DNA of 64,000 bases. Source: a virus. The translations under genes and the position numbers were made by a program. This document shows, piece by piece, positions 3,951 to 22,078 of this stretch. Positions within the stretch are counted from its first letter, which is position 1. The number at the start of each line of letters is the position of its first letter. Below the pieces are notes generated by a model. It made no database searches. It worked only from the letters and a program-made list of their open reading frames with translations, and had not been told where the DNA came from. Where the stretch lies: IMG/VR virus record IMGVR_UViG_3300049001_000044, positions 62,001 through 126,000 of that record. One strand, written 5' to 3'.

Positions 3951-4460
3951 TTAGCCGCGAACTGCTTCGAAGATTGTCCAACCATCCTCAACACGAGTAT
4001 TCACGATGCGCAGTGAGGTGCCAATTCCCAAAATCCACTCTGCCTCCGCTTCGTACGTCTCAATGAGAGTGTCTCCATCGGACTCTTCGTATTCTTGTGG
4101 ATTCAACTGCTTCATCTTCTTGTGAAGATCGATGGCCCACTTACACAGCGGAAAACCTCGTACGCACTTGACATGAAGGAGGGCTTTAACTTGTCTGCCA
4201 AACCTCTCCGCCACGCACCTGTACTCGGTCAAACTTGTGTAGTGATCCAAGGTGAATCGCACGTTTGACCCAAACTGCAGCAGTTCAGTGATGGCCTTTA
4301 CCTCTTGCTCGTAAAGGCCACGCCAAAGCTGCGTGCCATCTTCACTAAGAAGCCTCAGTGCTTTTTCAACACTTGGGATTGCTTCCCCATGTTTTCCTAT
4401 GTGACCTTTGCTGTGCACCAAATACAACAGGGTCGACTCATCATCATTTGTTATAGTCAT
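3951..4460 (-). CDS. Putative mono-ADP-ribosyltransferase (R-S-E class)
   Basis: 169 aa. Three signatures appear in the right order: LWRGLYEQE (the Arg of beta-1), HYTSLTEYRCVAERFG (the S-T-S-like segment followed by A..F), and YEAEAEWILGIGTSLRIV (the ExE catalytic loop with the following beta strand). This is the toxin-like ART fold also used by T4 Alt, ModA and ModB, which modify host RNA polymerase and other proteins. The target here is unknown. The gene stands alone with its own terminator. An AT-rich stretch at 4505-4545 probably holds its promoter. Confidence 0.65.
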   Translation of the reverse strand: MTITNDDESTLLYLVHSKGHIGKHGEAIPSVEKALRLLSEDGTQLWRGLYEQEVKAITELLQFGSNVRFTLDHYTSLTEYRCVAERFGRQVKALLHVKCVRGFPLCKWAIDLHKKMKQLNPQEYEESDGDTLIETYEAEAEWILGIGTSLRIVNTRVEDGWTIFEAVRG

Positions 4461-4549: not shown

Positions 4550-5752
4550 TTACAATGTGAAACGCGTGATATCCCCATTGATAATTTCTCCCTTGACCCA
4601 CTCACCAAAGGCATTACAGCCTATCAATCTCGTGGGGCCCTGGCGAGAAGCGAGGAGAGACCAGATTTCTCTGAAGAATCCTTCTCCCACCTCTAGTCTT
4701 CTCTTGTAGTAGTTGAGAGGAGAGGCGTAGATGTCTGCAAAGTTTACCACGACGCTGCTTTCAATATCCAAAATTTCCTTGATGAAGTCTTCCAACTCAT
4801 AGGATAGGAAGTCAACTTGCTTATAGATAACTTCCACATCCTTCAACGGCTGCACCACTGCGTACTCATCGCAGTCAAAGTCGCCAACCATGACTGCTTT
4901 TTCGGCTGATGGAAGATCCTTGAAGGTGCTCACCACATCGCCGTATAGTACGCTACTCTCTGCCGAAAATAGCAGGTGTTGGAAGTCAAGTGCCTCTTGC
5001 GAACGGTCCACGACGTAGATTTTCTTTACCTTGTAGTGCTCAGCCAGGATGAGAGGAGATAGTCCGGCGGCGTGCGTGATAAGTACGTCTGCCACACCAT
5101 CAGGGAGGTCAGGTAGCTCCTCACCACTTTCGTGCATGACGACATGTTGGAGTTTAGCAAGCACTTCCTTTTCAAAAATCGATTCAAAGTGCAGCTCGTG
5201 GTAAGGTGTTTTGAATTCGAACAGGAAGGTACCCTCTTCTAGTGGTAGGTTGTAGAACCTACCGTACTTTTTCAACTGTGCATTGATGAGCAGGCCGCCT
5301 CTCGCGGCATCATCCTTGCTAACCATTGCATTTTCGCCGTTCCTTTCCAAGCCATCGCTGACTTCTTTGAAGCCAACACCGATCATCTGCGTACCATTGA
5401 ACTTGGGCGAGTCGCATGCCTTCCATTCGTCGATGTTGAAGAACAAACATGTCTCTTCTAACCGCGCATATTCAACTGTCTTGCTAGCATAGCCGACTAC
5501 CATGTTGTCGCAGTACCGCTCTAAGCGCGCAACACTTTGCTCGTCATAAATGATGTGGTTGGCACTTTGCACAACGAGGTACTTCGTCTCGCACGTCCCA
5601 AGCGCATGGTCCACGCTGTCACGAAGTAGGATGTGTTTGGCATTCAGTTTGTCACGGAAGAATGGGATGAATGCTTTCGCAAAATCCCAATGCCAGTTTG
5701 GTTCGCCATCCTTAGGATTGAGGATGGCGATAGTTAGGTCGTCTCGAATCAT
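4550..5752 (-). CDS. Hypothetical protein with C-terminal Rossmann-like segment
   Basis: 400 aa, not assigned to a family. The start at 5752 (MIRDDLTIAILNPKDG) is preferred because AGGACATTGAA precedes it and the late promoter at 5812-5819 would leave almost no leader for the upstream ATG at 5797. Residues about 235-290 contain ITHAAGLSPLILAEHY followed by a beta strand ending VVDRS, which resembles a nucleotide- or SAM-binding fold. The N-terminal part may be a second alpha/beta domain. Confidence 0.65.
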   Translation of the reverse strand: MIRDDLTIAILNPKDGEPNWHWDFAKAFIPFFRDKLNAKHILLRDSVDHALGTCETKYLVVQSANHIIYDEQSVARLERYCDNMVVGYASKTVEYARLEETCLFFNIDEWKACDSPKFNGTQMIGVGFKEVSDGLERNGENAMVSKDDAARGGLLINAQLKKYGRFYNLPLEEGTFLFEFKTPYHELHFESIFEKEVLAKLQHVVMHESGEELPDLPDGVADVLITHAAGLSPLILAEHYKVKKIYVVDRSQEALDFQHLLFSAESSVLYGDVVSTFKDLPSAEKAVMVGDFDCDEYAVVQPLKDVEVIYKQVDFLSYELEDFIKEILDIESSVVVNFADIYASPLNYYKRRLEVGEGFFREIWSLLASRQGPTRLIGCNAFGEWVKGEIINGDITRFTL

Positions 5753-7774: not shown

Positions 7775-8012
7775 TTTTAATCCTTTCTTTCAACATTGCG
7801 TCAGCGCAACGATAGGCCCAGTGAGCAAAGTCACCAGGAGAATTGCAACCAGTGACTGGATTGCCCGTTACTCCTGCAAGAGCCTGGCCAGCGAATTGAT
7901 CGCGAAGCTCAAGCGGATGCAGGGGCGTCTTCATTATCTTCAACGCCTCTGCCATGGTCAACCCGTAGCGGTCTCGTACCAAGGCGATTACATCATGGAT
8001 TGTTGGAGTCAT
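7761..8012 (-). CDS. Hypothetical protein (83 aa)
   Basis: Mostly helical (HDVIALVRDRYGLTMAEAL). Overlaps the RNA-ligase gene by 4 nt (ATGA) and the 58-aa gene by 14 nt, so co-translated. Function unknown. Confidence 0.65.
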   Translation of the reverse strand: MTPTIHDVIALVRDRYGLTMAEALKIMKTPLHPLELRDQFAGQALAGVTGNPVTGCNSPGDFAHWAYRCADAMLKERIKNAEN

Positions 8013-9064
8013 TTTGCAAGTTGGTTAGGGGTGAATTGGCGTCCAGCGCGCCAATGTTTGGTGGTTTGAACGTGACCCTTGCGAACGAACTTGGCGACAG
8101 ATTTTCGGAACTCGCCGTACTTGAAACCTTCAGCGAGCCTTACCACGTAGCCTTCGTCCTTCGTGAAGTCCATCTTCAAATCCACATGAAGCGTCTCAAT
8201 GTACTTCGAGATGAAGATACCTTCCCACAGCACAGGCACAGGGGTGATATCCAGCAACTTGAACCACAGCAGTGTTTCATCCCATGGCAGGCATTCGTTG
8301 CGTTCATTCCAGATGCTGAAGCCGAGGAAGTAGCTGCTCAGCCCGTCGTAATGGATGGAATGTTCAGCCCACAGATTTTCACCACATACGCGCCAACCCG
8401 CTGGCAAGTTGAAGCAAACGTTCTCGATGAGGAACTTCTTCACCCATGCTCTGTCTTCGCCACCACGTGAATCAATCGAACGGGCATGGACGTGACCATC
8501 ACTGTAGCAGGTGGTGTTCTCGCCATCCATTTTCCTGGTGATGACAACATACTTGCCTTCAAACTGCGAGCAGTCCTTCAACGCCTTGTCATCATCATGG
8601 ATACCTGGCGACCAAGGAAGGTGGAAAGTGCGTTCGTACTTCACGTAGGGAGTGAAGAGCTCAAGCACATTCGCTAACACCTTCTGCACGGACTCGTCAT
8701 GGAACAACTCGCCCATCCCTCTACGCCCATCTTCAAGAATTGGGTTGCCCCACTTGTCGTAGACGTGGTCAGGGTAGAAGTGCGGAGGCACTATCTTCCT
8801 AGTGATGCCTGCTTTCTCCCTCACCTCTTCGACCGAGTAGATTGTCTTCTCGCACATGAGGTGGTGTTCCTCGCAGACGGTTGCACCATTTTCCAGGTAG
8901 TAGCCACCATCAGGCCAGAGCCTGCGCTCTAGGATGTGATGAGCATCCAATTTCCCTTCGGGCGTTTCTTCTGCCTTCTTCCCGCAGAACACGCATCGAT
9001 GATTGTCACGGGCAAATGTTCCCTCTCGGAAAGCATCCCGTGTTAGTAAGATTGGTTCCTTCAT
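8009..9064 (-). CDS. HNH domain fused to an RNA ligase
   Basis: 351 aa, two domains. Residues about 15-75 are an HNH nuclease-like module: CVFCG, AHHILERRLWPDGG, then ATVCEEHH. Residues about 160-340 are a nucleotidyltransferase RNA ligase: motif I KMDGEN (adenylated Lys), motif III GENLWAEHSIHY, motif IV EGYVVR and motif V KFVRK. RNA ligases of this type reseal cut RNA. Joining a nuclease-type zinc module to a ligase in one chain is unusual. Starts with an ATGA overlap after a 44-aa membrane peptide. Confidence 0.8.
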   Translation of the reverse strand: MKEPILLTRDAFREGTFARDNHRCVFCGKKAEETPEGKLDAHHILERRLWPDGGYYLENGATVCEEHHLMCEKTIYSVEEVREKAGITRKIVPPHFYPDHVYDKWGNPILEDGRRGMGELFHDESVQKVLANVLELFTPYVKYERTFHLPWSPGIHDDDKALKDCSQFEGKYVVITRKMDGENTTCYSDGHVHARSIDSRGGEDRAWVKKFLIENVCFNLPAGWRVCGENLWAEHSIHYDGLSSYFLGFSIWNERNECLPWDETLLWFKLLDITPVPVLWEGIFISKYIETLHVDLKMDFTKDEGYVVRLAEGFKYGEFRKSVAKFVRKGHVQTTKHWRAGRQFTPNQLAK

Positions 9065-10029: not shown

Positions 10030-11259
10030 TTAGAGTTCTATCACGTCCTCAGCTGTGGGGCCGTAGGAGAGGTACTTGACGTTGACTTCAGGGATTCGGT
10101 CAGCGATCACCTTTGACAGTTCATCAGTGAGGATGGTGATGAGCTGCCCTCCCAAGTTCACGTTCAACTTTTCACCAACTTGATCCAGGCAAGTGATCAT
10201 CAGTTGGGGTTTGTTGACATGGATACCAGTGATTTTGCTCAAGCTGTAGGATCGCTGAATATCCCTACTGATCATCAGCGACAAGGTATCCACATCCAAT
10301 GGTGCGTAGCGGAAGTGTCCTTGCCAAGGGCCAGTTACGTTCGTCTTATCTGTGGGGATTTGTGTAGACGTGATAGGGAGATTCTCCATCTTCAGAGGGC
10401 CGGCGCCGTGACGCGTGAGGTAGCACCTAGTGATGTAGACTGGGGTGATCTCGTTGTAGAACGTCTCGTACGCAGTCAAGATGCTTGATGGCAGTCCCGT
10501 GACCGAGCGAGTGACGTGAGGGAAGATTCCCAGCTGTTCATCCAACATCAAACCTTGTGCGCCTTCAATGATGAGGTCAGTGTAGGGGCGGGTGTAGTCA
10601 GCGCGAATGCTCTTCAACGGGGAGAGCATCGTTGCGTCGTGTTCGAAGTCAGGATTTTCGAACATCTGCAGGAACGGCGCAGCCTCTTCCTCGTCGACCC
10701 TGTCCTTCAACAGCTCGTATTCTTTCTTCCAGTACTCATTGAAGATATGTTGCAAGGTGCGGGACATCTGGTAGATGGAGGTCTGCTTCACCATGCCAAG
10801 CGTGATGCTGCGGCCGGCGAGGCTGCGAGTGACCGTCTCGTTGATGCCTAACCCGCAAGAACCGTGGCGCCCTTTACCACGGGACAACTCGCGAAGAGAG
10901 TTCAATGCCATGTCGTAGATGATGGTGACGCGGCATTCGGGGTGAGCAATAATCTTGTCCTCAAGATCCACACCCATCAGATTGAGCTGGTCAATCTCTT
11001 TAGTGAGGGAGTAGGGATTGAGGATGAACTGCCGAGCGAGGTAGGTGTTGGCACCAGCAAAGGTACCTGCACCAATATGACCGAAGACATGGCGTTTACC
11101 ATCCTTCGTTTCGACGGTGTGTCCTGCTTGAGCACCACCGTTTTGGCGTGCTACGAGGGAAGGTTTTCCTGCCTTACGAACGAGATAGTCCGTAGTCAGT
11201 CCCTTACCCTCATCGCCGAAGTTTGCACCAATTACTGCAAAAGCGTGATTCATCGACAT
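10030..11259 (-). CDS. purA: Adenylosuccinate synthetase-like (PurA/PurZ family)
   Basis: 409 aa, close to the 430 aa of PurA. The GTP/active-site loop FGDEGKG near residue 15 keeps the catalytic Asp, and GHT is present in NGGAQAGHTV. Family enzymes join aspartate to IMP with GTP; a phage branch (PurZ) makes diaminopurine nucleotides. The retained Asp argues for ordinary PurA chemistry, but the usual Asn before AGHT is Gln and the protein is divergent. Start ATG 11259 follows AAAGGTGG; an in-frame ATG at 11277 is upstream of that site. Confidence 0.85.
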   Translation of the reverse strand: MSMNHAFAVIGANFGDEGKGLTTDYLVRKAGKPSLVARQNGGAQAGHTVETKDGKRHVFGHIGAGTFAGANTYLARQFILNPYSLTKEIDQLNLMGVDLEDKIIAHPECRVTIIYDMALNSLRELSRGKGRHGSCGLGINETVTRSLAGRSITLGMVKQTSIYQMSRTLQHIFNEYWKKEYELLKDRVDEEEAAPFLQMFENPDFEHDATMLSPLKSIRADYTRPYTDLIIEGAQGLMLDEQLGIFPHVTRSVTGLPSSILTAYETFYNEITPVYITRCYLTRHGAGPLKMENLPITSTQIPTDKTNVTGPWQGHFRYAPLDVDTLSLMISRDIQRSYSLSKITGIHVNKPQLMITCLDQVGEKLNVNLGGQLITILTDELSKVIADRIPEVNVKYLSYGPTAEDVIEL

Positions 11260-11292
11260 CGTGTTGCCACCTTTCATCGTTTGTTGCTTTTG

Positions 11293-12448: not shown

Positions 12449-13348
12449 TTAGCCTTGGGTCAGTGCGTTCTTGAATGCGTGGCGGAGATCGTCAGGGCAA
12501 TTGCTCGACTCGATCACGTCGTAGATGTCTTCGCCTTGTGCGATCTTCAGGGTCGCGGTGACGACATCAGCCAGCTTCTTGTGGTTGCGCAGGAAGATGA
12601 CATTCGGACCCAACAGCTTGTTCCATGCCGAAGCGACATTGTCAGGGTAGTGGCGGAAGTGGCTGCCTTCTTCCGTGACAATGTGGAAGACCTTGTACTT
12701 CTCTTGCACCACGCTGAGCAGCGATTGGATGCTTTCGACTTCAGGCACGTCATTCGACCCGAATACCCGACGCAGATGCTCTTTGCTCAGTGGAGTCGGC
12801 GGCGGCGGTTCATCGCCGATCGTGAAGAGGAAACCCTTCTGACCGCGACGATCGAAGGAGTCGATCTTGGTTCGGTGGGCAGCGAAGTACCACGGCAGAT
12901 CGTACGACTCGTGATGATTGCCACCGCCACCGCTCTCAAGATACAGAGTGCGCAGCTGTTCGATCAGAGGAATGGCACCGGCTTCGAACTGCGAAACTTG
13001 CAGGGGAGCTTGGTCACTTGCACGAACATCGCCGATGCCCATGAACATGATGTGCGGATCGGTGACAGGCTGGTCTTCGTAGATCGACTCCATCAGCGGC
13101 TGCAGACCTTCACGTGCGATGTTCTCGGCCACGAAGCCCATCGAACCAGTTACGTCCAGGCCGAAGATAACCGGAGTGGAGCTGGGGTTGGCCGCGCTGT
13201 CGCACGATTCACGCAGCATGATCTTGGCCGGGTCCAGGCCAGCAGGCAGGTAGCGGCTTTCGAAGATTTGTTCGCGGCTCTTCGATTCGAGCTTGTGAGT
13301 TGAACGGTAGGAGACGTATTCATTGCTGTCAAAACGGTGGTTACCCAT
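12449..13348 (-). CDS. Von Willebrand factor A domain protein
   Basis: 299 aa. The MIDAS metal site is seen as FGLDVTGSMG near residue 72, with later GIGD and TIGDEPPPPTP segments. Start ATG 13348 follows AAAGGAAAGATC. VWA proteins of this kind accompany Ter-type stress modules, and a full one lies at 26-31 kb. Its partner is likely the Met-rich protein just upstream. Confidence 0.85.
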   Translation of the reverse strand: MGNHRFDSNEYVSYRSTHKLESKSREQIFESRYLPAGLDPAKIMLRESCDSAANPSSTPVIFGLDVTGSMGFVAENIAREGLQPLMESIYEDQPVTDPHIMFMGIGDVRASDQAPLQVSQFEAGAIPLIEQLRTLYLESGGGGNHHESYDLPWYFAAHRTKIDSFDRRGQKGFLFTIGDEPPPPTPLSKEHLRRVFGSNDVPEVESIQSLLSVVQEKYKVFHIVTEEGSHFRHYPDNVASAWNKLLGPNVIFLRNHKKLADVVTATLKIAQGEDIYDVIESSNCPDDLRHAFKNALTQG

Positions 13349-13400
13349 GATCTTTCCTTTCAGAGCGGAGAGAGGAATCCTCTCTCCTTGTTGATGTTGA

Positions 13401-14081
13401 TTAGCCGCGGAACGGAGTCTTGCTGCGACCACCGTAGCTATCGTTGCTATCGCCGCTGAACATCTTCATCATCTGCATTTGCATCATCATCTGCATCATG
13501 TTGGCGCCACCTGCTGCACCTGCTGCCGGGTCCGTACCTGCTGCGCCGGTCTGCATCATCAACATCATTGGCATCATCTTCTCGAGATCGAGATCGTCGC
13601 CGCCCATCATGATCATCGGCAGCAACATGCCTTGCATTGCGCCCAGACCGGTAGCACCACCTGGCAGCATGGTAGTCAGCGAGCGAACAACCATCACGCC
13701 GCTATCGAGGCCGAACATCTGCACTTTCGGCGGGTTCCATGCCTGGATGGTACCGTTAGCACGCATGATTTTGAAGGTGCCTTTCTCGCTCTTCGAGATG
13801 ACCCAGCCAGGAGTATCGCCCGTGGTGTAGATCATATCGCCGACATTCACGGCTTCCTTCGGAGTGGATTGTGCGAAGGCAGGAACCGCGACGGCCATGT
13901 CTTCGAAGAAGTTGATGGTGATCGAAGCGTCTTCGCCTTCACCATCGATCGAAGCGATACCGTCTTTCGTTTGGACGCCGATCTTACCACTCATCAGGTC
14001 CCATACGACGCCATCGACACGGCGGAAGAAGCGGTTCATCAGTGCATCGCCACCAGGCATTTTGAATTTCGACATGTTCAT
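13401..14081 (-). CDS. Hypothetical protein with Met-rich C-terminus
   Basis: 226 aa. The N-terminal part (residues 1-130) looks like beta-rich domains. The C-terminus is extremely methionine-rich with Gly/Ala linkers (MMQMMMQMQMMKMF) and ends SKTPFRG. Start at 14081 follows AAGGA; a longer in-frame start at 14150 would add a CPCC zinc-knuckle-like leader but has no ribosome site. Similar Met-rich proteins accompany VWA proteins in ter-like loci. Confidence 0.65.
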   Translation of the reverse strand: MNMSKFKMPGGDALMNRFFRRVDGVVWDLMSGKIGVQTKDGIASIDGEGEDASITINFFEDMAVAVPAFAQSTPKEAVNVGDMIYTTGDTPGWVISKSEKGTFKIMRANGTIQAWNPPKVQMFGLDSGVMVVRSLTTMLPGGATGLGAMQGMLLPMIMMGGDDLDLEKMMPMMLMMQTGAAGTDPAAGAAGGANMMQMMMQMQMMKMFSGDSNDSYGGRSKTPFRG

Positions 14082-14216: not shown

Positions 14217-15731
14217 TTAGGCTTCCGTGTTCTGACGCATTTCGTCCAGGGTGATCTCGTTGTAGAGGTCACCGTAGTGGTAGACGATCTGGTGCAGGTC
14301 TTCCAGGGTGTGGTGCAGGTCACCTTGGTCGATACGGACAGTCTTGATCTCGTTAGTCACGGTATCGCGAACCAGAGTCAGCACACCTTCCTTCGACTTC
14401 TTGCCAGCGTCAGTGACGGGGTCCTTCGCGATGCCGACCCATTCACCATCGACCAGGATCGAAGATGCTTTCTGGGCGAACTTGTACTTGTCGCGATTGA
14501 CTTTCTGCAGCAGTGCACCACCAGAACCGAAGATGATGCAGTCAGCCGAGTAGTTCAAGCCGATGACGATGTTGCCCAGCAGGGTACGGATTGCGGAGTG
14601 ATCCACACCATCGCCTTGGATGATGCCGACGTAGCGGATCTTCTTGTGGCCGGTGCTGGTGTAGTCGAAGCCATAAGCATCTTCCTGCATCTTAAGGATT
14701 TTAGGAACGATTTCCATCATGTCGCCGCTGTCCGGGCGGAAGACCACCTTGATGCCTGATGCCTTGATCAGTTCGACGAATGGAGGAGAGCAGAGTCGAG
14801 CTGCGCAGCGGAAGACATCGCGGCCATCGATGACGAGGGAGAGGATCTTGGCACCCAGCTTCTTCGCCGATGCGATCTGGTGCTCGAGGTAGTGGATTTC
14901 GCCGGCATCGTCCAGGCCGAAGGAACATTCCACACTGTGTTCAGTGGCGTAGACGGAGAAAGCAGCCATGTCGCACTTGTAGAAGTGGTTCGCAGCCAGC
15001 ACACCTTCGATGGTATCAGAACCCATGAAGTTGATGAGGTGAGCAAAGCCACCGATTTCAGCCTGCTCCGCGCAGGTAACACCGCGGCCGCCGAAGTCGT
15101 GGTAGGCGAAGCCGATCATCGACATGTCTGCACCCGACAACTTGTAGTAGTGCTTGATTTCCTGCTTAATGTCGTAGTCATCGGTCGCGATGGTGGTGGG
15201 GTACCAGATACCGCGGAGGATGATGGTCTCGAAGTAAGCGGACATCCAGAACAGGTCTTCGTCCAGGCAGGTGACCGTGTACAGAGCGTTGCCGCCCGGA
15301 ACCTTGGTGCCTTCCTTCGCTGCACGAATGATGAGAGGAGCGTAGCCGTTGTACTTCTCCACCACTTTCTCCCAGTCCTTGCGGGAAACCAGGGAGTAGC
15401 CGAAGTGCTTCAGCGAGAACGCTTCAGCTTCGTCGATGTGGAATTTGGTGATGCGCTGGGTAAAGTAGCGCTTCAGCAGCATCTGCATACCGGCAGGAAC
15501 GATGGTCTCGTCCTTGGATACGCGGGCTTCGCCGTAGCTGGACATGCCCTTGATGCCGGGACGGTACGAGAAGGCGTGTGCACCCTTGTACGAGTCCGAA
15601 CGGAGGATGAGGGAGATGATGAGCCGATCCAGGTAGGTGTACTTCTTGTCCGTGCTGGATGGAGTGAGGTACTTGGAAATGAAGTCGAACTTCTGTACCA
15701 AGCCGATTGCGCTGCTTGCAACTTGAGTCAT
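14217..15731 (-). CDS. nadV: Nicotinamide phosphoribosyltransferase (NAMPT)
   Basis: 504 aa, full length for NAMPT. It makes NMN from nicotinamide and PRPP. Landmarks: SYGEARVSKDE early, WYPTTIATDDYDI, VFRPDSGDMMEI (substrate/PRPP-binding Arg-Asp) and FGSGGALLQKVNRDKYKFAQK. With the NMNAT-Nudix protein at 17.2-18.3 kb it gives a two-step route from nicotinamide to NAD+, the NARP2 arrangement by which phages rebuild NAD+ after defence systems deplete it. Confidence 0.95.
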   Translation of the reverse strand: MTQVASSAIGLVQKFDFISKYLTPSSTDKKYTYLDRLIISLILRSDSYKGAHAFSYRPGIKGMSSYGEARVSKDETIVPAGMQMLLKRYFTQRITKFHIDEAEAFSLKHFGYSLVSRKDWEKVVEKYNGYAPLIIRAAKEGTKVPGGNALYTVTCLDEDLFWMSAYFETIILRGIWYPTTIATDDYDIKQEIKHYYKLSGADMSMIGFAYHDFGGRGVTCAEQAEIGGFAHLINFMGSDTIEGVLAANHFYKCDMAAFSVYATEHSVECSFGLDDAGEIHYLEHQIASAKKLGAKILSLVIDGRDVFRCAARLCSPPFVELIKASGIKVVFRPDSGDMMEIVPKILKMQEDAYGFDYTSTGHKKIRYVGIIQGDGVDHSAIRTLLGNIVIGLNYSADCIIFGSGGALLQKVNRDKYKFAQKASSILVDGEWVGIAKDPVTDAGKKSKEGVLTLVRDTVTNEIKTVRIDQGDLHHTLEDLHQIVYHYGDLYNEITLDEMRQNTEA

Positions 15732-15804
15732 GATAAAGCTCCTTTATCTAAAATTTGGCTTTGCGTCTATCGCTTTGCCGTGGTCATCAAGAGTTGATAT
15801 TGAA

Positions 15805-15838
15805 ATTGTATTACTTCAAGTACGTTTCAAAAACTGCA
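15805..15838 (-). promoter_or_regulatory. TGCAGTTTTTG-type promoter
   Basis: TGCAGTTTTTG, 17 nt, TACAAT, embedded in the last codons of the upstream gene and driving NAMPT. Confidence 0.75.
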
Positions 15839-16395
15839 GTGTTGAAGTTGAATTCGACAGGATCAACGTAGACGATCTCGATGCCAGAGGCCGTGGCCTT
15901 CTCGATCTCGTCCTTAACTCCGGTGGATTGGTCCCAACCTGGAAGCATGACGACGATCACCTTGTCGCAACGCTTAAGCAGGTTGATGGAGTAGTCGCCC
16001 CAGAAGTTGTAATCGCCCTCCATCCCTGGCGTCAGATGGATGGAGTAATGGTTGAAGAGTGGGCTGACGACGTGTTCGCCCGGATTCTTCATCATGTACA
16101 TCCCGCTGATACCCATGATCGCCGTCATGAGCACTTCCTTGTTCTCGTACTGCGAGTACGGGCCGGCCAGATAAACCAGCTTATGCCTGGGTTTATCCAG
16201 GACTTCGAAGCGAGAAGCGATGTAGGAGATGCCTCGCGCTTCCAGCAGCTCAACAAAGCAAGTGTTGGTGTCACTGGCAACTGTGTAAACCCTGCCAACT
16301 TCCAGCTTGAAGAGCCGGTCGTTTGGGAGCAATTCTTCGCTCTCTCCAGCATCAACGCAACGGAGCTGAGTGCCTGCGTGAATCATTTTCGACAT
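15811..16395 (-). CDS. Nucleoside deoxyribosyltransferase-fold protein (DUF1937-like)
   Basis: 194 aa. The N-terminal ~60 residues form a small beta domain. Then LVYLAGPYSQYENKE, the typical first strand and loop of nucleoside 2-deoxyribosyltransferase-like proteins, and CDKVIVVMLPGWDQSTGVKDE with the acidic active-site region. The fold cleaves N-glycosidic bonds of nucleotides. Lying between NAMPT and NMNAT, it may take part in NAD or nucleotide turnover. Confidence 0.75.
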   Translation of the reverse strand: MSKMIHAGTQLRCVDAGESEELLPNDRLFKLEVGRVYTVASDTNTCFVELLEARGISYIASRFEVLDKPRHKLVYLAGPYSQYENKEVLMTAIMGISGMYMMKNPGEHVVSPLFNHYSIHLTPGMEGDYNFWGDYSINLLKRCDKVIVVMLPGWDQSTGVKDEIEKATASGIEIVYVDPVEFNFNTAVFETYLK

Positions 16396-16398
16396 GAT

Positions 16399-16971
16399 TT
16401 AATCCTTTTGACGTGGGAGCAACTTGACGTAAGATGCTCCGAATTCTTTAACCACTGCATCGAAATCCTTTGCAGCTTCTGCGAGGTACTTCTTGTCCAA
16501 GCTGGTGATGCTCATGATTGGGAAGCCATACGCTTCTTCCTTCTCTGCAACTAGCGAGGTTTTGTTGTCCTCGTAAGTCAGGTAGAAAGGGCGGCCTTTC
16601 TCGAAGAATACCAGCACCACGATATCCATCTTGGCGATCTTATCTCGCTCACGCTTGGCATCGAAGGCACGATTGTGGAGATAGGTTCCCATCTGCTTCC
16701 ACCACTGCCGAATGAAGGTATAGTCCACACCCTGCTCCAGCAGATTTTCGGCGGTGTGAGCCAGATCATAGATGGTCAGTGTGTCCATCCCACCAGCAAC
16801 CAGCGTCATGTCGATGCGGTGCTTGTAGAGAAGGTAGGAGAGGAATCGATTCCTTACCGTGAACAGCTGGATTTCCCAGAACTCTTCGTCCTTCTCTTCA
16901 GTGATTCCCAGCGCCTTGATGACCTGTTCCTTGGTGGCCATCGTAGCGAGCATTTGTTGCAGGTCGTTCAT
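16399..16971 (-). CDS. Hypothetical protein (190 aa) in the NAD cluster
   Basis: Start MNDLQQMLATMAT at 16971 follows AAGGAACTACG. Mixed alpha/beta with FYLTYEDNK and YGFPIMSITSLDKK segments. No family recognised. Co-directional with the flanking NAD genes behind a phage promoter. Confidence 0.65.
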   Translation of the reverse strand: MNDLQQMLATMATKEQVIKALGITEEKDEEFWEIQLFTVRNRFLSYLLYKHRIDMTLVAGGMDTLTIYDLAHTAENLLEQGVDYTFIRQWWKQMGTYLHNRAFDAKRERDKIAKMDIVVLVFFEKGRPFYLTYEDNKTSLVAEKEEAYGFPIMSITSLDKKYLAEAAKDFDAVVKEFGASYVKLLPRQKD

Positions 16972-17006
16972 CGTAGTTCCTTCATCGAAAAGCATTCAGA
17001 TGATTC

Positions 17007-17040
17007 ATTGTAATGCTTTTCGATCGCATCAAAAACTGCA
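17007..17040 (-). promoter_or_regulatory. TGCAGTTTTTG-type promoter
   Basis: TGCAGTTTTTG, 17 nt, TACAAT on the minus strand. Drives the 190-aa gene and DUF1937-like gene. Confidence 0.75.
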
Positions 17041-17041
17041 G

Positions 17042-17203
17042 TTACAGGTGCTTTTCACCCACCATGGAAAATTCCTTAGGTGCCCAGAGGCGAGTGAACC
17101 TGGACCGCCTTACAACGACGATCATGCCAGGACTGTCTTGGTGCCACACGAGCAAATCTCGGTAGTCTACAACCCAGTCCCAAAAGTCCTTGAGGGCGGT
17201 CAT
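17042..17203 (-). CDS. Small hypothetical protein (53 aa)
   Basis: Begins MTALKDFWDWVVDYRDLLVW and ends MVGEKHL. AAGGACTGACC precedes the ATG; it starts 3 nt after the stop of NMNAT-Nudix and so is translationally linked to it. No family known. Confidence 0.6.
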   Translation of the reverse strand: MTALKDFWDWVVDYRDLLVWHQDSPGMIVVVRRSRFTRLWAPKEFSMVGEKHL

Positions 17204-17205
17204 GG

Positions 17206-18339
17206 TCAGTCCTTGATCAGGCCAACCATCGTGTCGATGATGGCGTGGTGATCTTCGAACCAGTTCTGCGGATTTGCACGTGCTTCCGAGATCGGCAGCC
17301 AGAAGGCCTTCGCGGTTTCGACGATGCCTTCAACCCCGCCAGTATCTTCCAGGGGAGCGAACTGGCCAGCCACTTTCGGCAGCGGCTTGGTATCGTCGAG
17401 GCGGTACAGGAATGCGAAGGTGATGGTGCGACCACGCAGCGAACGATTTGGATCGTCGAAGTATTCGTAATCGACGATCGAACCGCGGAGGATGTCCTCG
17501 GTGATTTCCTTCGCTCGCTTGCCTTCGGCTAGTCGCAGGCCGGTTTCTTCCAGCACTTCGGTGATCGCGGCTTCTTTCACTCGCTGCTTCGGCTTGACGA
17601 AGCCACCAGGCAGGGCCCACAGACCTTTGCCAGGCAATGCGCCGCGTTCGACGACGAGGATGTGGCCAGACTGGATGATGACGGAGTCGGCGGTGACGAA
17701 GGTTGGCGCGTAAGGAGCAAATGCCCAGCGTTCCTTGTATGCCTTGATGAAGTTGTATTCATCACGCAAAACGCCGAGAGTTGGCGTGGTGATGAAGTTG
17801 CGAAGGAAGCGATCGGTTGCTTCAGGAATATCCCGCCACGTCATGTAAGCGCCAGTGAACAGGCGATCGCGGAGAGCTGTGGCGTTGAGGTCTTCGCCGA
17901 CAGGGTGTGGGTCCTTGAAGTCCTTGCCCCATTGAGGGAAGCAGCGGAGGTACCAGGTGCTGTCATCGCGCTCGGAACCGGTCACGAAGATTTCCGGGTT
18001 GTCGAAGCCGAAGTCTCGCACAGCAGCTTGGACATTCTCCTGGACCGATTGGATCCATTTCGCGTCGTTGTACGGCTGATCAGGGAGGGGACGAATTTCG
18101 TAGGAGGTTTCTGCCGTTACTTGCAGATTACCGAGCACCCAGTTCGTGATGATCTGGCGGCGTTCGATGTAGGTGAAGGGGTTCTTGATGTCTCGGGATT
18201 TGTTAGCCGAGCCGACCAGAACTACAACGCCATCGTAATTTTGGAAGGCATTGTTGAGGACGTGAACGTGTCCGTTGTGGAGGGGTTGGAATCGACCGAT
18301 GTAGACGGCCACCCGCTTGCGGGGATTAGTGTTTGCCAT
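17206..18339 (-). CDS. nadM: Bifunctional NMN adenylyltransferase / Nudix hydrolase
   Basis: 377 aa, two domains. Residues 1-180 are an [21 protein letters not shown] (HxGH-type ATP site) and later DLNATALRD (ISSTxxR-like). Residues about 215-377 are a Nudix hydrolase, with the box spread over [18 protein letters not shown] and LEETGL. This NadM-Nudix fusion is a known architecture that makes NAD+ from NMN and hydrolyses ADP-ribose. It completes the NAMPT pathway. GAGGAGCTCG precedes the start. Confidence 0.95.
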
Positions 18340-18396
18340 TTTCGAGCTCCTCGTAGTTGGCGTTGGTTTCCTTGGCGTCTATCGCCTCGGTGAAAT

Positions 18397-18404
18397 TATT
18401 TACT
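18397..18404 (-). promoter_or_regulatory. Late-type promoter, AGTAAATA
   Basis: Late-like octamer upstream of NMNAT-Nudix, overlapping the stop of the lipoprotein gene. Confidence 0.45.
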
Positions 18405-18639
18405 GGTTCTGGCGGTAGATTGATTCAGGAACAGTGGTGTAGACCCAGCCTGGATCGCCATCCTTATAGCAGCCGAAGTCAGTGACTCTTCCCATTGGGG
18501 CATTAATGCTGTTCAACGTGGTTACCGACATGTCATGCTGTTTGCAGTAGGTTTCTGCTCTCACACGATCTTCAGCAGTTCGTCCAGCGCAGCCCACCAG
18601 GGAGAGGGTAAGCACCATCATCAGAATTTTCTTCATCAT
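18400..18639 (-). CDS. Small lipoprotein
   Basis: 79 aa. Signal peptide MMKKILMMVLTLSLVGC with lipobox LVGC, then a short periplasmic domain with two more Cys. Could be an outer-membrane spanin or a superinfection/adsorption factor; no partner spanin is visible. Confidence 0.75.
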   Translation of the reverse strand: MMKKILMMVLTLSLVGCAGRTAEDRVRAETYCKQHDMSVTTLNSINAPMGRVTDFGCYKDGDPGWVYTTVPESIYRQNQ

Positions 18640-18654
18640 CTTTTCAGCTGCATT

Positions 18655-18822
18655 TTACTGGAGACGCTTGATGTCTTGCTTCAGGTCAGCGATTTTCTTC
18701 ATCGTGCCTGGAACGTCGTAGGCCTTGCCTTGGCGCTTCTTCTGCAGGGCTTCCTGCATTTCAGCCTCGAGCTGGTTAATGCGATCCTGCAGCACCTTGA
18801 TTTTCTTGTCGTTCTTTGCCAT
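18655..18822 (-). CDS. Small coiled-coil protein (55 aa)
   Basis: Begins MAKNDKKIKVLQDRINQLEA and ends KQDIKRLQ, almost entirely heptad-like helix. GGGAGAACTGA precedes the ATG. Upstream of the lipoprotein in the same unit. Confidence 0.65.
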   Translation of the reverse strand: MAKNDKKIKVLQDRINQLEAEMQEALQKKRQGKAYDVPGTMKKIADLKQDIKRLQ

Positions 18823-18910
18823 TCAGTTCTCCCATGTGATGATTAGTTTTCGACAGCAGCTCCTGCAGTCGTTGACCTTGCTCTTTAACTTTGTCAAGTA
18901 GAGTATTCAT
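18776..18910 (-). CDS. Possible leaderless small ORF (44 aa)
   Basis: Begins MNTLLDKVKEQGQRLQELL. The ATG is exactly 6 nt after a TAAAAT -10 box, so it could be translated from a leaderless mRNA. It overlaps the 55-aa gene out of frame over 47 nt. It could simply be the leader of that gene. Confidence 0.35.
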   Translation of the reverse strand: MNTLLDKVKEQGQRLQELLSKTNHHMGELNGKERQENQGAAGSH

Positions 18911-18916
18911 AAGAGC

Positions 18917-18950
18917 ATTTTACACGAGAGTACACACAACAAAAACTGCA
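18917..18950 (-). promoter_or_regulatory. TGCAGTTTTTG-type promoter
   Basis: TGCAGTTTTTG, 17 nt, TAAAAT; upstream of the coiled-coil and lipoprotein genes. Confidence 0.7.
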
Positions 18951-18969
18951 GTAGGTCCTTAGAGCATAG

Positions 18970-19055
18970 TCTGGGACCTCTAAATGAGGCCCAGAGATGA
19001 CACAGGGACCTCGATGACAGCTTTATCATCAAAGGTCCCTGAGGTCTCTGAGCAC
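18970..19055. repeat. Intergenic hairpin repeat 2
   Basis: Contains AATGAGGCCCAGAGATG, a long hairpin with arms AGGGACCT/AGGTCCCT, and GAGGTCTCTGAGCACCT, the same arm as repeat 1. Confidence 0.7.
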
Positions 19056-19056
19056 C

Positions 19057-19368
19057 TTACAGAGTTTTCGCGATCTGAATCGAGGAGGTTTGTTGCAGGT
19101 ACTGTTGTTGGACGTTCTCCGCAGGAGTGAACTTCACGAGGACGCTATTTGCGGGAATCTCCAAGGTCTCAATCTCTGGATTCGAGAGAGTCCATGGCAC
19201 GAACGCCAGTCCTAGTTGACCTGGGCGAACTTGCTGGAATTGGAGAATGTGGGGACGACGAACGACGTAGGAGGTTGGCTTGTCGCTGCCCAAGAGAGTG
19301 AGAGTGCTCTTCAGTTCGGTGACGAGCTCTTCACCGGTGATCATTTTCAGGGAAACGATTTCAGACAT
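19057..19368 (-). CDS. Sm-like small protein
   Basis: 103 aa. The N-terminus IVSLKMITGEELVTEL, the middle YVVRRPHILQF and the C-terminal strand EIPANSVLVKFTP match the pattern of Sm/Hfq-like five-stranded proteins found in T4-related phages. An RNA-binding role is inferred from the fold only. Confidence 0.55.
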   Translation of the reverse strand: MSEIVSLKMITGEELVTELKSTLTLLGSDKPTSYVVRRPHILQFQQVRPGQLGLAFVPWTLSNPEIETLEIPANSVLVKFTPAENVQQQYLQQTSSIQIAKTL

Positions 19369-19390
19369 GTGGGTGATCCTAAAAAGAAAA

Positions 19391-19412
19391 TAGTGGAGCT
19401 ATTTAGCTCCAC
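19391..19412 (-). terminator. Terminator
   Basis: GTGGAGCTA/TAGCTCCAC stem with minus-strand tail TTTTCTTTTT, after the HAD gene. Confidence 0.8.
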
Positions 19413-19435
19413 TACCGGATCAGATGTCTGGCTTG

Positions 19436-20071
19436 TTAGGCAGCTTGGGGTGTTGCCTTCTCGAGGGTACGGGTGATGCGGCGCTTTACGATGGGTGTGC
19501 GGATTTTGGCCATCTTCTGCTGGTATTCTTTCAGCTTGTCACCCAGGTTTTCCACACCCAGGAACGTGCTGATCCGATCCAGGTCCTTCCACGTGATGCC
19601 CTCGAGGTAGGATTCGGCGCAGATGTGGAAGGTCTCACGCTCCTCATCCGTGATTTCACGGTAGTACTCGGCCTCGTCCTCGATCACGACGAAGTTGTCA
19701 GTGAGGTGTTCCTTGTGCCGTGCCAGCCACTGGCGGATTTCCGTCAATTTGCTGGTACGCTGGGCGTAGCGGGCTTGGCCATGGACAGTGCACCAGTCAT
19801 CGTGGATTTTCAGGAACAGACCGTTCTCGAAAAAGATGCGCTCCCAGCTTTCCTTGCTGTCCGTCGAGGTGCCGTCGAACGGGCTGGTCATGCCCACACG
19901 ATGGGAGCTGATGACGACGCGAAGATTGGGAACAGCCCAGTCCAGGAAGTTCAGCATGCCCACAGCGCAGGGGTCGAACTGCCAGCCATAGCGGGGAACG
20001 ATGTTCTTGGGCATGAAGAGGGCGCGGCCAGGGACCATCGGTCCGTCAACGTCAAAAAACAGAATTGGCAT
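19436..20071 (-). CDS. HAD-like domain protein
   Basis: 211 aa. FFDVDGPM is HAD motif I (nucleophile Asp plus second Asp), LRVVISSHR is motif II, and FVVIEDEAEYY resembles motif IV. The group includes phosphatases and polynucleotide-end-processing proteins. A role in RNA or DNA end repair is possible given other repair genes here. Confidence 0.75.
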   Translation of the reverse strand: MPILFFDVDGPMVPGRALFMPKNIVPRYGWQFDPCAVGMLNFLDWAVPNLRVVISSHRVGMTSPFDGTSTDSKESWERIFFENGLFLKIHDDWCTVHGQARYAQRTSKLTEIRQWLARHKEHLTDNFVVIEDEAEYYREITDEERETFHICAESYLEGITWKDLDRISTFLGVENLGDKLKEYQQKMAKIRTPIVKRRITRTLEKATPQAA

Positions 20072-20085
20072 AAGTCCTCCCTGGG

Positions 20086-20259
20086 TTAGAACCCGGTATC
20101 GTCTTTGTTGTAGATGAAGGCCGAGATCAGAAACGCGGTCGCCTGCTCGAGAATCTTCCCTTCCAGAGGGATAGCATTCCCAAAGTCGTCCATGATGAAG
20201 GTCCGCAGATCCTCATCCTTGTAGATGGGGCCGTTAGGCCCATGGAGAACCCGCATCAT
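20086..20259 (-). CDS. Small hypothetical protein (57 aa)
   Basis: Begins MMRVLHGPNGPIYKDEDLRT and ends YNKDDTGF. GAGGAACTGCGCA lies upstream, and the ATG overlaps the stop of the preceding gene. Unknown function. Confidence 0.6.
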   Translation of the reverse strand: MMRVLHGPNGPIYKDEDLRTFIMDDFGNAIPLEGKILEQATAFLISAFIYNKDDTGF

Positions 20260-20432
20260 TTGCGCAGTTCCTCAACAATGCGGGTTACCTCATCGAGGTC
20301 GGCTTCTTCCAGTGCCGCGTCGTAAGTGAGCATGTCCACGGCGATCGCGCGAGCATCCATTCCGGTGAAGTCGTAGCCGTTTTCGGCCGCGTTCTTCAGT
20401 GCTTCACGTACCAGTTCTTTGAGCTTGTCCAT
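20256..20432 (-). CDS. Small hypothetical protein (58 aa)
   Basis: Begins MDKLKELVREALKNAAENGY and ends RIVEELRK; acidic and helical. GCAGGAGGCGAG precedes the ATG. Overlaps the DUF4031 gene by 29 nt. Confidence 0.65.
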   Translation of the reverse strand: MDKLKELVREALKNAAENGYDFTGMDARAIAVDMLTYDAALEEADLDEVTRIVEELRK

Positions 20433-20685
20433 CTCGCCTCCTGCAAATGTTCACTAGTTCCCTCGAAGTAATGCTCGAGGCTCCAAGCTGGAGAGCCAAA
20501 TCTCGCTGCTCCCCGGAGATGTCGTAGTGCGGGTACTTCGTGTTCTTGTGGAAGAAGTGGGGTTTGATTCCCACCTTCTCCGCAAATTCGTGCATCTCTT
20601 CGTATGTGTCGGCCACGAGGTGAGCGTAGGATTTCCTTCCCTTACTCCCCTTTTTCCAAGTGGCCCCATCCACGTACACTCCCAT
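20404..20685 (-). CDS. DUF4031-family protein
   Basis: 93 aa. MGVYVDGATWKKGSKGRK, then HLVADTYEEMHEFAEKVG and PHYDIS match the DUF4031 pattern, a small phage/bacterial family of unknown activity. Starts at a TGATG junction with the SprT gene. Confidence 0.75.
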   Translation of the reverse strand: MGVYVDGATWKKGSKGRKSYAHLVADTYEEMHEFAEKVGIKPHFFHKNTKYPHYDISGEQRDLALQLGASSITSRELVNICRRRDGQAQRTGT

Positions 20686-21437
20686 CACTTGCCTTTCGAC
20701 AGGTGCTTGATGACCTCGACTGCGTGTCCGCACGGGGAGAACACGGAGGCAGACCTGATCGTCGGGAACTTCTTGGAGAGCAGCTCACCAAGTTGCCTGA
20801 ACTCCTTCTCCATCATGAGCTGCTCCACGGTCGGTTCCGCTTCCAAGCTGATGTCGAAGCCCAGGCGCTGCTTCAGGGCCTCCATCTCCTCTTCGTTCAG
20901 GGTCCCGATCTTGGCGATAATCTCGCCCACTTTCCTGCCGCCCGGCTTTCGTGGCCCGTGCTTCTTGCGAACCGGGAGTTGGATCGAGGAAGGGTCGTAG
21001 ACGTGCTTGATGACGTCCTTCCAAGTTTGGCCTGGCTTCGGCCCGCGATCCAGGAACTCCATCACGATCCGCCACTCCTGACCATGGGCCATGACCTTCC
21101 CATTTCCAAGAGAGGGGTTCTCCTTGCGGAGGATTGGGGCAACGTGCTTGGTGGCGATGTGGGCTACCTCGTGTGGAATCGTCTCCAAGATGTAGTCGCT
21201 CTCGTTCTCCACCAGGAACACCGGATGGAAACGCAGGACGTTCAACGAGGGCATTGCCATCCCGCAGGTGAGCGTCTTCAAATCGTACCGGATTTCCGGC
21301 ATGCCCAACTTCAATTTCCACTTCTTGTTGCAAGCGTCGAGGGTTTCTTTAACCCTGGCTTCGCACTTGGCCTTGAGTTCGTCCGTGAGCAATACGGCTT
21401 CACGTTCCATGAACTTGATCTGCTTCTTCTTTTTCAC
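20685..21437 (-). CDS. SprT-like zinc metalloprotease
   Basis: 250 aa. The zinc site is ETIPHEVAHIATKHV (HExxH-type), with a following AHGQEWRIVM, the SprT signature. The C-terminal part (about 150-250) is basic. SprT/SPRTN proteases cut DNA-bound proteins. Starts at GTG (21437) behind GGAGGTTGTAG. The 21438-21535 gap contains AT-rich promoter-like sequence (TATTATAGCC). Confidence 0.85.
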   Translation of the reverse strand: MKKKKQIKFMEREAVLLTDELKAKCEARVKETLDACNKKWKLKLGMPEIRYDLKTLTCGMAMPSLNVLRFHPVFLVENESDYILETIPHEVAHIATKHVAPILRKENPSLGNGKVMAHGQEWRIVMEFLDRGPKPGQTWKDVIKHVYDPSSIQLPVRKKHGPRKPGGRKVGEIIAKIGTLNEEEMEALKQRLGFDISLEAEPTVEQLMMEKEFRQLGELLSKKFPTIRSASVFSPCGHAVEVIKHLSKGK

Positions 21438-21535
21438 CTACAACCTCCGTTGCTGCATTCGATAAGGCTATAATATCACAACCTGATAGAAAGTACACAG
21501 GCAAAATTGTAACAAGCCAGACTTCCTGTTACAAG

Positions 21536-22078
21536 TTACTCAAAGGAAACAAGTCCTCCCATACTCGCATTCATTTGCTCTATTAAAGCAACCCGTTCTT
21601 GGCGGAGTTCTTCGAGCTTAGCGGCATTCGCGGTTGGTAGTTTCAACTCCATTTGGAAAAGGGTGCGAAGTTCCATGAGGAGTTGACCCAAGTGATTTAA
21701 GCCGTTGCCACTGCCCACAGGCGAGACACCCCAGAAGCGGTCGCCCCAAGAGTTGCCCTCAATGAGTATGGCATCTTTCGTGTCGATGAGTAGTTGTTTC
21801 AGGTGGGGATTTTGGTCGAACTTGGCGAAGAGGATTTCCGCCATGACCTCAACTTTGATGTCGTCCCAGTCCGGACGAATGAGGATTTGCCTTCCATATC
21901 TCTTAGCTTGGCCTGGAGACAGATGTAGGAATTTACGTCTTACGAGTGGGTGTTCGGATTTTGCAGCTTGGAAGGCAGCTTCACTGTGGGCCCAAGTGAA
22001 TCCATCCCACGTGAAGCTGCAAAGATAAAAGTTCGATAGGAAACGGTAGTCTCCCTGGAACTCAAGTATTTTTGCCAT
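21536..22078 (-). CDS. NADAR domain protein (YbiA/DUF1768 family)
   Basis: 180 aa. FQGDYRFLSNFY, then HSEAAFQAAKSEHP and the final WGVSPVGSGNGLNHLGQLLM are the conserved NADAR blocks. NADARs act on ADP-ribose N-glycosidic bonds; some remove ADP-ribose from guanine in DNA and so reverse DarT-type toxins. With NAMPT and NMNAT-Nudix nearby, a counter-defence role is plausible. Confidence 0.9.
   Translation of the reverse strand: MAKILEFQGDYRFLSNFYLCSFTWDGFTWAHSEAAFQAAKSEHPLVRRKFLHLSPGQAKRYGRQILIRPDWDDIKVEVMAEILFAKFDQNPHLKQLLIDTKDAILIEGNSWGDRFWGVSPVGSGNGLNHLGQLLMELRTLFQMELKLPTANAAKLEELRQERVALIEQMNASMGGLVSFE

Follow-up and report, generated by a model that had tools for sequence, protein, structure and literature searches.

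We found that a 64,000-base stretch of the IMG/VR virus record IMGVR_UViG_3300049001_000044 (bases 62,001-126,000 of 343,229; hereafter the window), from a giant phage, carries a gene of the DUF1937 family between the two genes of a phage NAD+-salvage module. The module comprises a NadV-type nicotinamide phosphoribosyltransferase (NAMPT) and a NadM-type nicotinamide mononucleotide (NMN) adenylyltransferase fused to a Nudix domain (NMNAT-Nudix), and by its sequence this pair is a standard NAD+ reconstitution pathway 2 (NARP2) module. On balance, we consider it probable that the module consists of a NARP2 core plus an accessory DUF1937 N-glycosidase whose substrates are NAD+-derived, much as RyDEP accompanies NARP1. 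An initial annotation of the window had proposed an NAD+-rebuilding and ADP-ribose toolkit, and the genes that it named are all in place; matches in Pfam, PHROGs and NCBIfam and to solved relatives put NAMPT, NMNAT-Nudix and NADAR beyond doubt. Most of that interpretation is known biology, a large share of it (NADAR beside NadM/NadV in phages) having already been published in 2022 (PMC9503650), and the DUF1937 gene is the component that looks new. The genes for NAMPT, the DUF1937 protein, an orphan protein, NMNAT-Nudix, NADAR and an ADP-ribosyltransferase-like protein all lie on the minus strand (Table 1).

The NARP2 core

NAMPT and NMNAT-Nudix align lengthwise with solved enzymes. NAMPT matched PF04095 (4e-34), PF18127 (1e-15) and phrog_448 (3e-116), its closest solved relative is the Xanthomonas enzyme 7yqo (324 bits), a true NAMPT, and its catalytic residues His265, Asp239, Arg332 and Asp334 were invariant in the alignment. 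The NMNAT domain retains HxGH. In the Nudix box ExxEE is retained, the first Glu is replaced by Gln and the Arg by Thr; both changes are shared with the nearest relative (first Glu to Gln; Arg to Thr or Glu), and the box of the jumbo-phage contig L026 is canonical.

A scan of IMG/VR yielded 81 NMNAT-Nudix loci, or 59 after reduction at 80% identity, of which 54 also carry NAMPT. NAMPT lies downstream of NMNAT on the same strand in every one of these 54 (median gap 342 bp), which is a fixed arrangement and not chance. The order and strand of the two enzymes in the window are as in other phages; different from these, the DUF1937 gene, a small open reading frame (ORF) and the orphan gene sit between them, and the Nudix box is altered. 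The NARP2 route named in the initial annotation is well supported by the catalytic residues and by this arrangement. A NARP1 reading was dropped because Adps, the ADP-ribose kinase resembling phosphoribosyl pyrophosphate (PRPP) synthetase, was not found: PF13793 had no match in the 343-kb record, which may be incomplete, in a search whose control was positive in 14/14 genomes.

Fold and predicted active site of the DUF1937 protein

The initial annotation had listed a deoxyribosyltransferase-fold protein and a DUF1937-like protein as two, and these proved to be one gene (15811-16395). An AlphaFold2 model of its product, built from seven sequences, was confident for residues ~70-180; residues 1-68 form an N-terminal region of low model confidence, followed at ~70-184 by an N-glycosidase-like domain with the nucleoside deoxyribosyltransferase (NDT) fold. 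Residues 69-186 of the model were assigned to this fold by Foldseek (4e-5) and VIA-align (Z 9-12.7). The top structural match in VIA-align was 1t1j (Z 12.7), itself a DUF1937 protein, whose gene we take to be PA1492, and the next were NDTs, the CMP N-glycosidase MilB and DNPH1 (Z 9-10.4). TIR proteins such as ThsB scored Z 9-9.6, in agreement with the shared superfamily of Iyer et al.; in its fold the DUF1937 protein resembles the TIR enzymes that make immune signals.

A motif S157-x-G159-x-x-x-E163 (SxGxxxE) was invariant in an alignment of seven phage DUF1937 proteins, and from this motif E163 would be the equivalent of the nucleophilic catalytic Glu of NDTs. The fold and an SxGxxxE-type motif are common to the window protein and to 1t1j, NDTs, MilB and DNPH1, from which it differs in its low identity (~20%), its extra N-terminal region and its NAD-salvage context. 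A Pfam scan found no RyR-type domain in the DUF1937 protein or in the orphan. Viral DrHyd members found by Iyer et al. are predicted ADP-ribosyl cyclases (PMC9503650), and a literature search, with most subscription journals outside its coverage, found no paper linking DUF1937 or a deoxyribosyltransferase to phage NAD+ salvage.

DUF1937 genes recur beside NAD+-salvage genes

In whole-record searches of 36 related records, Pfam DUF1937 was present in five, each time adjoining an NAD+-salvage gene. The copy is ~0.2-1 kb from the NAMPT gene in three records (that of the window, G001 and G007), and in Caulobacter phage CcrSC it overlaps the gene of a NadR-type NMNAT with PnuC upstream, with a like placement in a relative of this phage. 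The chance of the three DUF1937-NAMPT proximities is ~3e-6, or ~3e-4 leaving out the window.

The Caulobacter copy bears on one alternative, in which the DUF1937 protein would hydrolyse nucleoside monophosphates (NMPs) to base and ribose-5-phosphate, and host Prs would turn the latter into PRPP for NAMPT. NAMPT requires PRPP, the two genes adjoin in the window, and the fold includes an NMP N-glycosidase (MilB); in the Caulobacter phages, however, DUF1937 adjoins a NadR-type NMNAT and PnuC with NAMPT ~57 kb away, and we regard this alternative as quite improbable.

The surveyed loci gave a similar picture. Locus L025, whose NAMPT is 90% identical to that of the window, retains the gene order NADAR-DUF4031-HAD-NMNAT-DUF1937-NAMPT, its DUF1937 protein (54% identity to the window's) being encoded between the same two genes. 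In L026 a 112-aa relative overlaps the NAMPT stop by 4 bases, in L029 a relative overlaps the end of NMNAT, in L040 one follows NAMPT by ~0.2 kb, and in L031 a copy lies 8 kb off on the opposite strand. Among the surveyed loci, 4/5 relatives were inside the NMNAT-NAMPT core, a region that accounts for 18% of the sequence (p 0.004; the profile was partly seeded from core genes). On the NMNAT tree, where the trait occurs in 5/7 rows of the window's clade and elsewhere in L040, at least three changes are needed, indicating that the association arose in more than one lineage. A peptide-pattern scan found no close viral DUF1937 relatives, yet L025 holds one; because this copy escaped the first scan, such negatives are weak. 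A genome scan using the phage DUF1937 alignments gave no match.

The same adjacency could reflect local gene order in one phage group, the module being plain NARP2 and its neighbour an unrelated nucleotide N-hydrolase, DNPH1/MilB-like, with a housekeeping role on phage DNA precursors or unwanted nucleotides. The closest solved enzymes of known function, which act on deoxynucleosides, CMP or deoxynucleoside monophosphates (dNMPs), would fit such a role, as would the recurrence of a purine-nucleotide gene (adenylosuccinate synthetase) as a neighbour, the DUF1937 relatives without an NAD link in Brevundimonas phages and bacteria, and the lack of clustering with NAMPT of the related NDT family PF15891. 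We nevertheless hold it somewhat unlikely, in view of the five-of-five adjacency across the 36 records and of its occurrence in two contexts (NAMPT; NadR-type NMNAT with PnuC) and at least two NMNAT clades.

A common promoter motif upstream of the salvage genes

The minus strand of the window holds six copies of the motif [AC]TGCAGTTTTTG-N17-TANAAT (positions 1089, 15839, 17041, 18951, 25595 and 31738) and the plus strand none; 0.47 would be expected for the first box alone. Half of them precede NMNAT, orphan/DUF1937 and NAMPT, and copies in L025 stand before the same genes. Weaker copies (AGTTTTT-N17-TANAAT) are scattered through the 343-kb record and are almost confined to the minus strand, indicating that the motif is a general phage promoter. 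The positions of the copies suggest that each salvage gene has its own transcription start, and not that these genes form an exclusive regulon.

Proposed role of the DUF1937 protein

Based on the known enzyme families, NAMPT would join nicotinamide, freed by host NADase defences, to PRPP to give NMN, which the NMNAT domain would adenylate to NAD+; the fused Nudix domain would cleave ADP-ribose to AMP and ribose-5-phosphate, and host enzymes would return these to ATP and PRPP. For the DUF1937 protein we infer the substrate, the direction of flux and an anti-defence role: it would break an N-glycosidic linkage by hydrolysis, in a nucleotide that derives from NAD+ or is related and that comes from the host immune response, thereby removing a signal or dead-end product and feeding building blocks back to salvage. 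Candidate substrates are N-linked cyclic ADP-ribose (cADPR) or another ADP-ribose (ADPR) conjugate; among Thoeris signals, N7-cADPR and His-ADPR are possible substrates.

There is a published parallel. The glycosidase RyDEP, encoded inside a NARP1 operon, cleaves 2'/3'cADPR to ADP-ribose, which NARP1 converts to NAD+ (PMC13232231, a 2026 preprint). As with DUF1937 here, a glycosidase-type gene is inserted in a phage NAD+-rebuilding operon; different from it, RyDEP has a RyR-type domain, acts on the ribose-ribose bonds of 2'/3'cADPR and belongs to NARP1, whereas the DUF1937 protein has the NDT fold and accompanies NARP2. By this analogy, the DUF1937 protein might be the NARP2 counterpart of RyDEP, an NDT-fold N-glycosidase that destroys an N-glycosidically linked NAD+-derived immune messenger and passes the products to NMN and NAD+ synthesis, a specific proposal that we make tentatively and consider rather unlikely. 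If true, NAD+-derived signals would be cleared by two unrelated enzyme classes, the second of them distributed over jumbo phages.

Several observations weigh against a role of the DUF1937 protein on NAD+-derived molecules. The second catalytic acid of NDTs, an Asp, has no invariant counterpart in the alignment of the seven phage proteins, and the same fold serves enzymes for dNMPs, CMP or free nucleosides and would fit NMP/dNMP hydrolases equally. The adjacency counts come from few records, in part of a single clade, the promoter motif is general to the phage with weaker copies elsewhere, and in the window's Nudix box the usual E and R are missing. DUF1937 genes of Brevundimonas phages have no adjoining NAD gene, and bacterial PA1492-type genes sit among sugar/dehydrogenase-like genes with no NAD link; an NAD context is thus not a feature of the whole family.

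Rebuilding NAD+ has come to be seen as a general phage counter to NADase defences. Were the DUF1937 protein, whose gene is the one most closely tied to the NARP2 enzymes of these jumbo phages, a glycosidase on NAD+-derived molecules, signal removal would have a candidate that can be tested, as it had in RyDEP for NARP1, and this would be the first phage function proposed for DUF1937, a family name not found in the literature examined. The initial annotation had suggested both the DUF1937-like protein and the 190-aa orphan as new parts of the pathway; the former gains from its recurrent adjacency to NAD+ salvage, the common promoter motif and its glycosidase-type fold, and the latter, with no homologue and missing from L025, was rejected as a pathway part.

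Table 1. Features of the window (positions counted from its first base).
Feature	Position	Strand	Basis or remark
Small ADP-ribosyltransferase-like protein, 169 aa, R-S-E motif	3951..4460	-	phrog_832 'RNA polymerase ADP-ribosylase' 1.6e-6
Adenylosuccinate synthetase-like protein (PurA/PurZ relative)	10030..11277	-	Catalytic GDEGKG Asp retained; PHROG of PurZ-type enzymes
NAMPT (NadV-type), 504 aa	14217..15731	-	Pfam, PHROG, solved relative, catalytic residues
Promoter motif CTGCAGTTTTTG-N17-TACAAT upstream of NAMPT, overlapping the 3' end of the DUF1937 gene	15805..15839	-	L025 equivalent at 8701
DUF1937/DUF4406 protein, 194 aa	15811..16395	-	PF09152 1.4e-9 (above cut-off); phrog_355 5e-18
Orphan protein, 190 aa from Met9 (198 aa from the first ATG at 16995)	16399..16971	-	ORF; ribosome-binding-site-like sequence
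Promoter motif CTGCAGTTTTTG-N17-TACAAT upstream of orphan/DUF1937	17007..17041	-	L025 equivalent at 7890
Small ORF, ~53 aa, directly downstream of NMNAT	17042..17203	-	Sequence; conserved in L025
NMNAT-Nudix (NadM-type, bifunctional), 377 aa	17206..18339	-	phrog_395 2e-68; solved relatives 2qjo, 2qjt
Promoter motif CTGCAGTTTTTG-N17-TAAAAT upstream of 18400-18639/NMNAT	18917..18951	-	L025 equivalent at 4637
Hairpin, 12-bp stem, T-rich tail, between the HAD gene and 19057-19368	19389..19416	-	Similar L025 hairpin in the same place
HAD_SAK_2 protein	19436..20071		Member of the possible RNA-repair set
NADAR, YbiA type, 180 aa	21536..22078	-	PF08719 3e-26; TIGR02464 above cut-off

NADAR belongs to a neighbouring unit

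NADAR had been counted as part of the same toolkit. It is a genuine YbiA-type NADAR: its Glu107 aligns with the last-strand Glu of YbiA (2b3w; match E-value 9e-19), with a C-terminal extension added in the phage copy, and T4 gp30.3-type NADARs have a His at this position (PMC11125620). A hairpin terminator, however, divides the NADAR, SprT, DUF4031 and HAD genes from the NARP2 genes, and, as read from this predicted element, NADAR sits in a separate transcription unit. As in the arrangement reported by Iyer et al. in 2022, NADAR is within 8 kb of NadM-Nudix and NadV; different from that report, it is here in a unit of its own with SprT, DUF4031 and HAD genes (PMC9503650). SprT, like the orphan, is missing from L025. 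Across 14 genomes, 3/16 NADAR copies were within 5 kb of NAMPT against 0.7 expected (p 0.03), modestly above chance.

The genes around NADAR allow another view, in which NADAR, the HAD_SAK_2 protein and an RNA ligase form an RNA-repair and ADP-ribose clean-up set independent of NAD+ salvage. The HAD_SAK_2 gene and an HNH-RNA ligase gene (8009-9064) are both present, and the hairpin parting NADAR from NARP2 is also found in L025. Iyer et al. tied NADAR to RNA repair (PMC9503650), and NADARs reverse guanosine ADP-ribosylation of RNA (PMC11833690). This is a serious possibility, against which we lean given that in phages XacN1 and B23 and in loci L081-L084 and L102 the NADAR gene is flanked by NMNAT and NAMPT. 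By analogy with its family, the window NADAR probably acts apart from the salvage route, yet compatibly with it, by taking ADP-ribose off guanosine adducts in DNA or RNA.

Other genes of the window and of related loci

The orphan (16399-16995) had no match in Pfam, PHROG, NCBIfam, phage records, viral contigs or 18 related records, it is absent from L025, and its single-sequence fold (predicted local distance difference test score, 54) was too low to interpret; it is a strain-specific insert. The start at Met9 (190 aa, 16399-16971) is likelier because a ribosome-binding-site-like AAGGAAC precedes it. The conserved small ORF at 17042-17203 had been missing from the initial annotation.

The ADP-ribosyltransferase that had been placed at 4 kb corresponds to gene 3951-4460. 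It has the R, S-x-T and E-x-E motifs of Alt-like (R-S-E) ADP-ribosyltransferases, as does a protein with 37% identity to it in another jumbo phage; it had no match in Pfam or NCBIfam, phrog_832 being its one match, and the assignment is weakly supported. Because it lies ~10 kb from NAMPT, it belongs only loosely to the cluster.

Genes in or beside NMNAT-NAMPT islands encode NADAR, macro-like proteins, NadA (PF02445, 1.8e-77), PnuC (PF04973, 2.6e-41), adenylosuccinate synthetase and DUF1937 proteins. The adenylosuccinate synthetase-like gene is a recurrent neighbour in the window's NMNAT clade and recurs beside phage NAD+-salvage genes in L026, L027, L028, L031, L040 and L102. A Z-genome reading of this gene was rejected, the PurA-type catalytic Asp being retained and the PurZ model scoring far below cut-off. 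Together with gene 12449-13432 (327 aa, von Willebrand factor A-like by appearance), it forms a pair also seen in Vibrio and Rhizobium phages, and mycobacteriophages carry relatives of both. The RNA ligase of the window has an HNH-like N-terminal domain.

Some jumbo phages have the quinolinate synthase gene nadA, for an enzyme of de novo NAD+ synthesis, between NMNAT and NAMPT (L043:12391-13299, L063:11782-12681), with relatives nearby in L040, L060 and L074. Macro-like genes in L093, L095, L097, L100 and L105 were called on a sequence motif alone; that of L093 has no Pfam match, and those of L093 and L100 match phrog_335 'phosphatase'.

Genes of PF15891, a different NDT subfamily, were rejected as NAD-linked, since their whole-record positions show no clustering with NAMPT. 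Two related contigs have such a gene between NMNAT and NAMPT (L080:11192-11683, L102:8119-8604), and in L102 NADAR comes after it. Elsewhere in the 343-kb record, beyond the window and far from the NAD+ cluster, are one more PF15891 gene and a gene with a macro domain (G000:C1:235539-235853 and 332208-332537).

In L025, a GIY-YIG/NUMOD3 homing endonuclease gene (L025:5695-6652) lies between a truncated 34-codon nmnat start and a complete nmnat, an arrangement that leaves the 5' end of nmnat duplicated.

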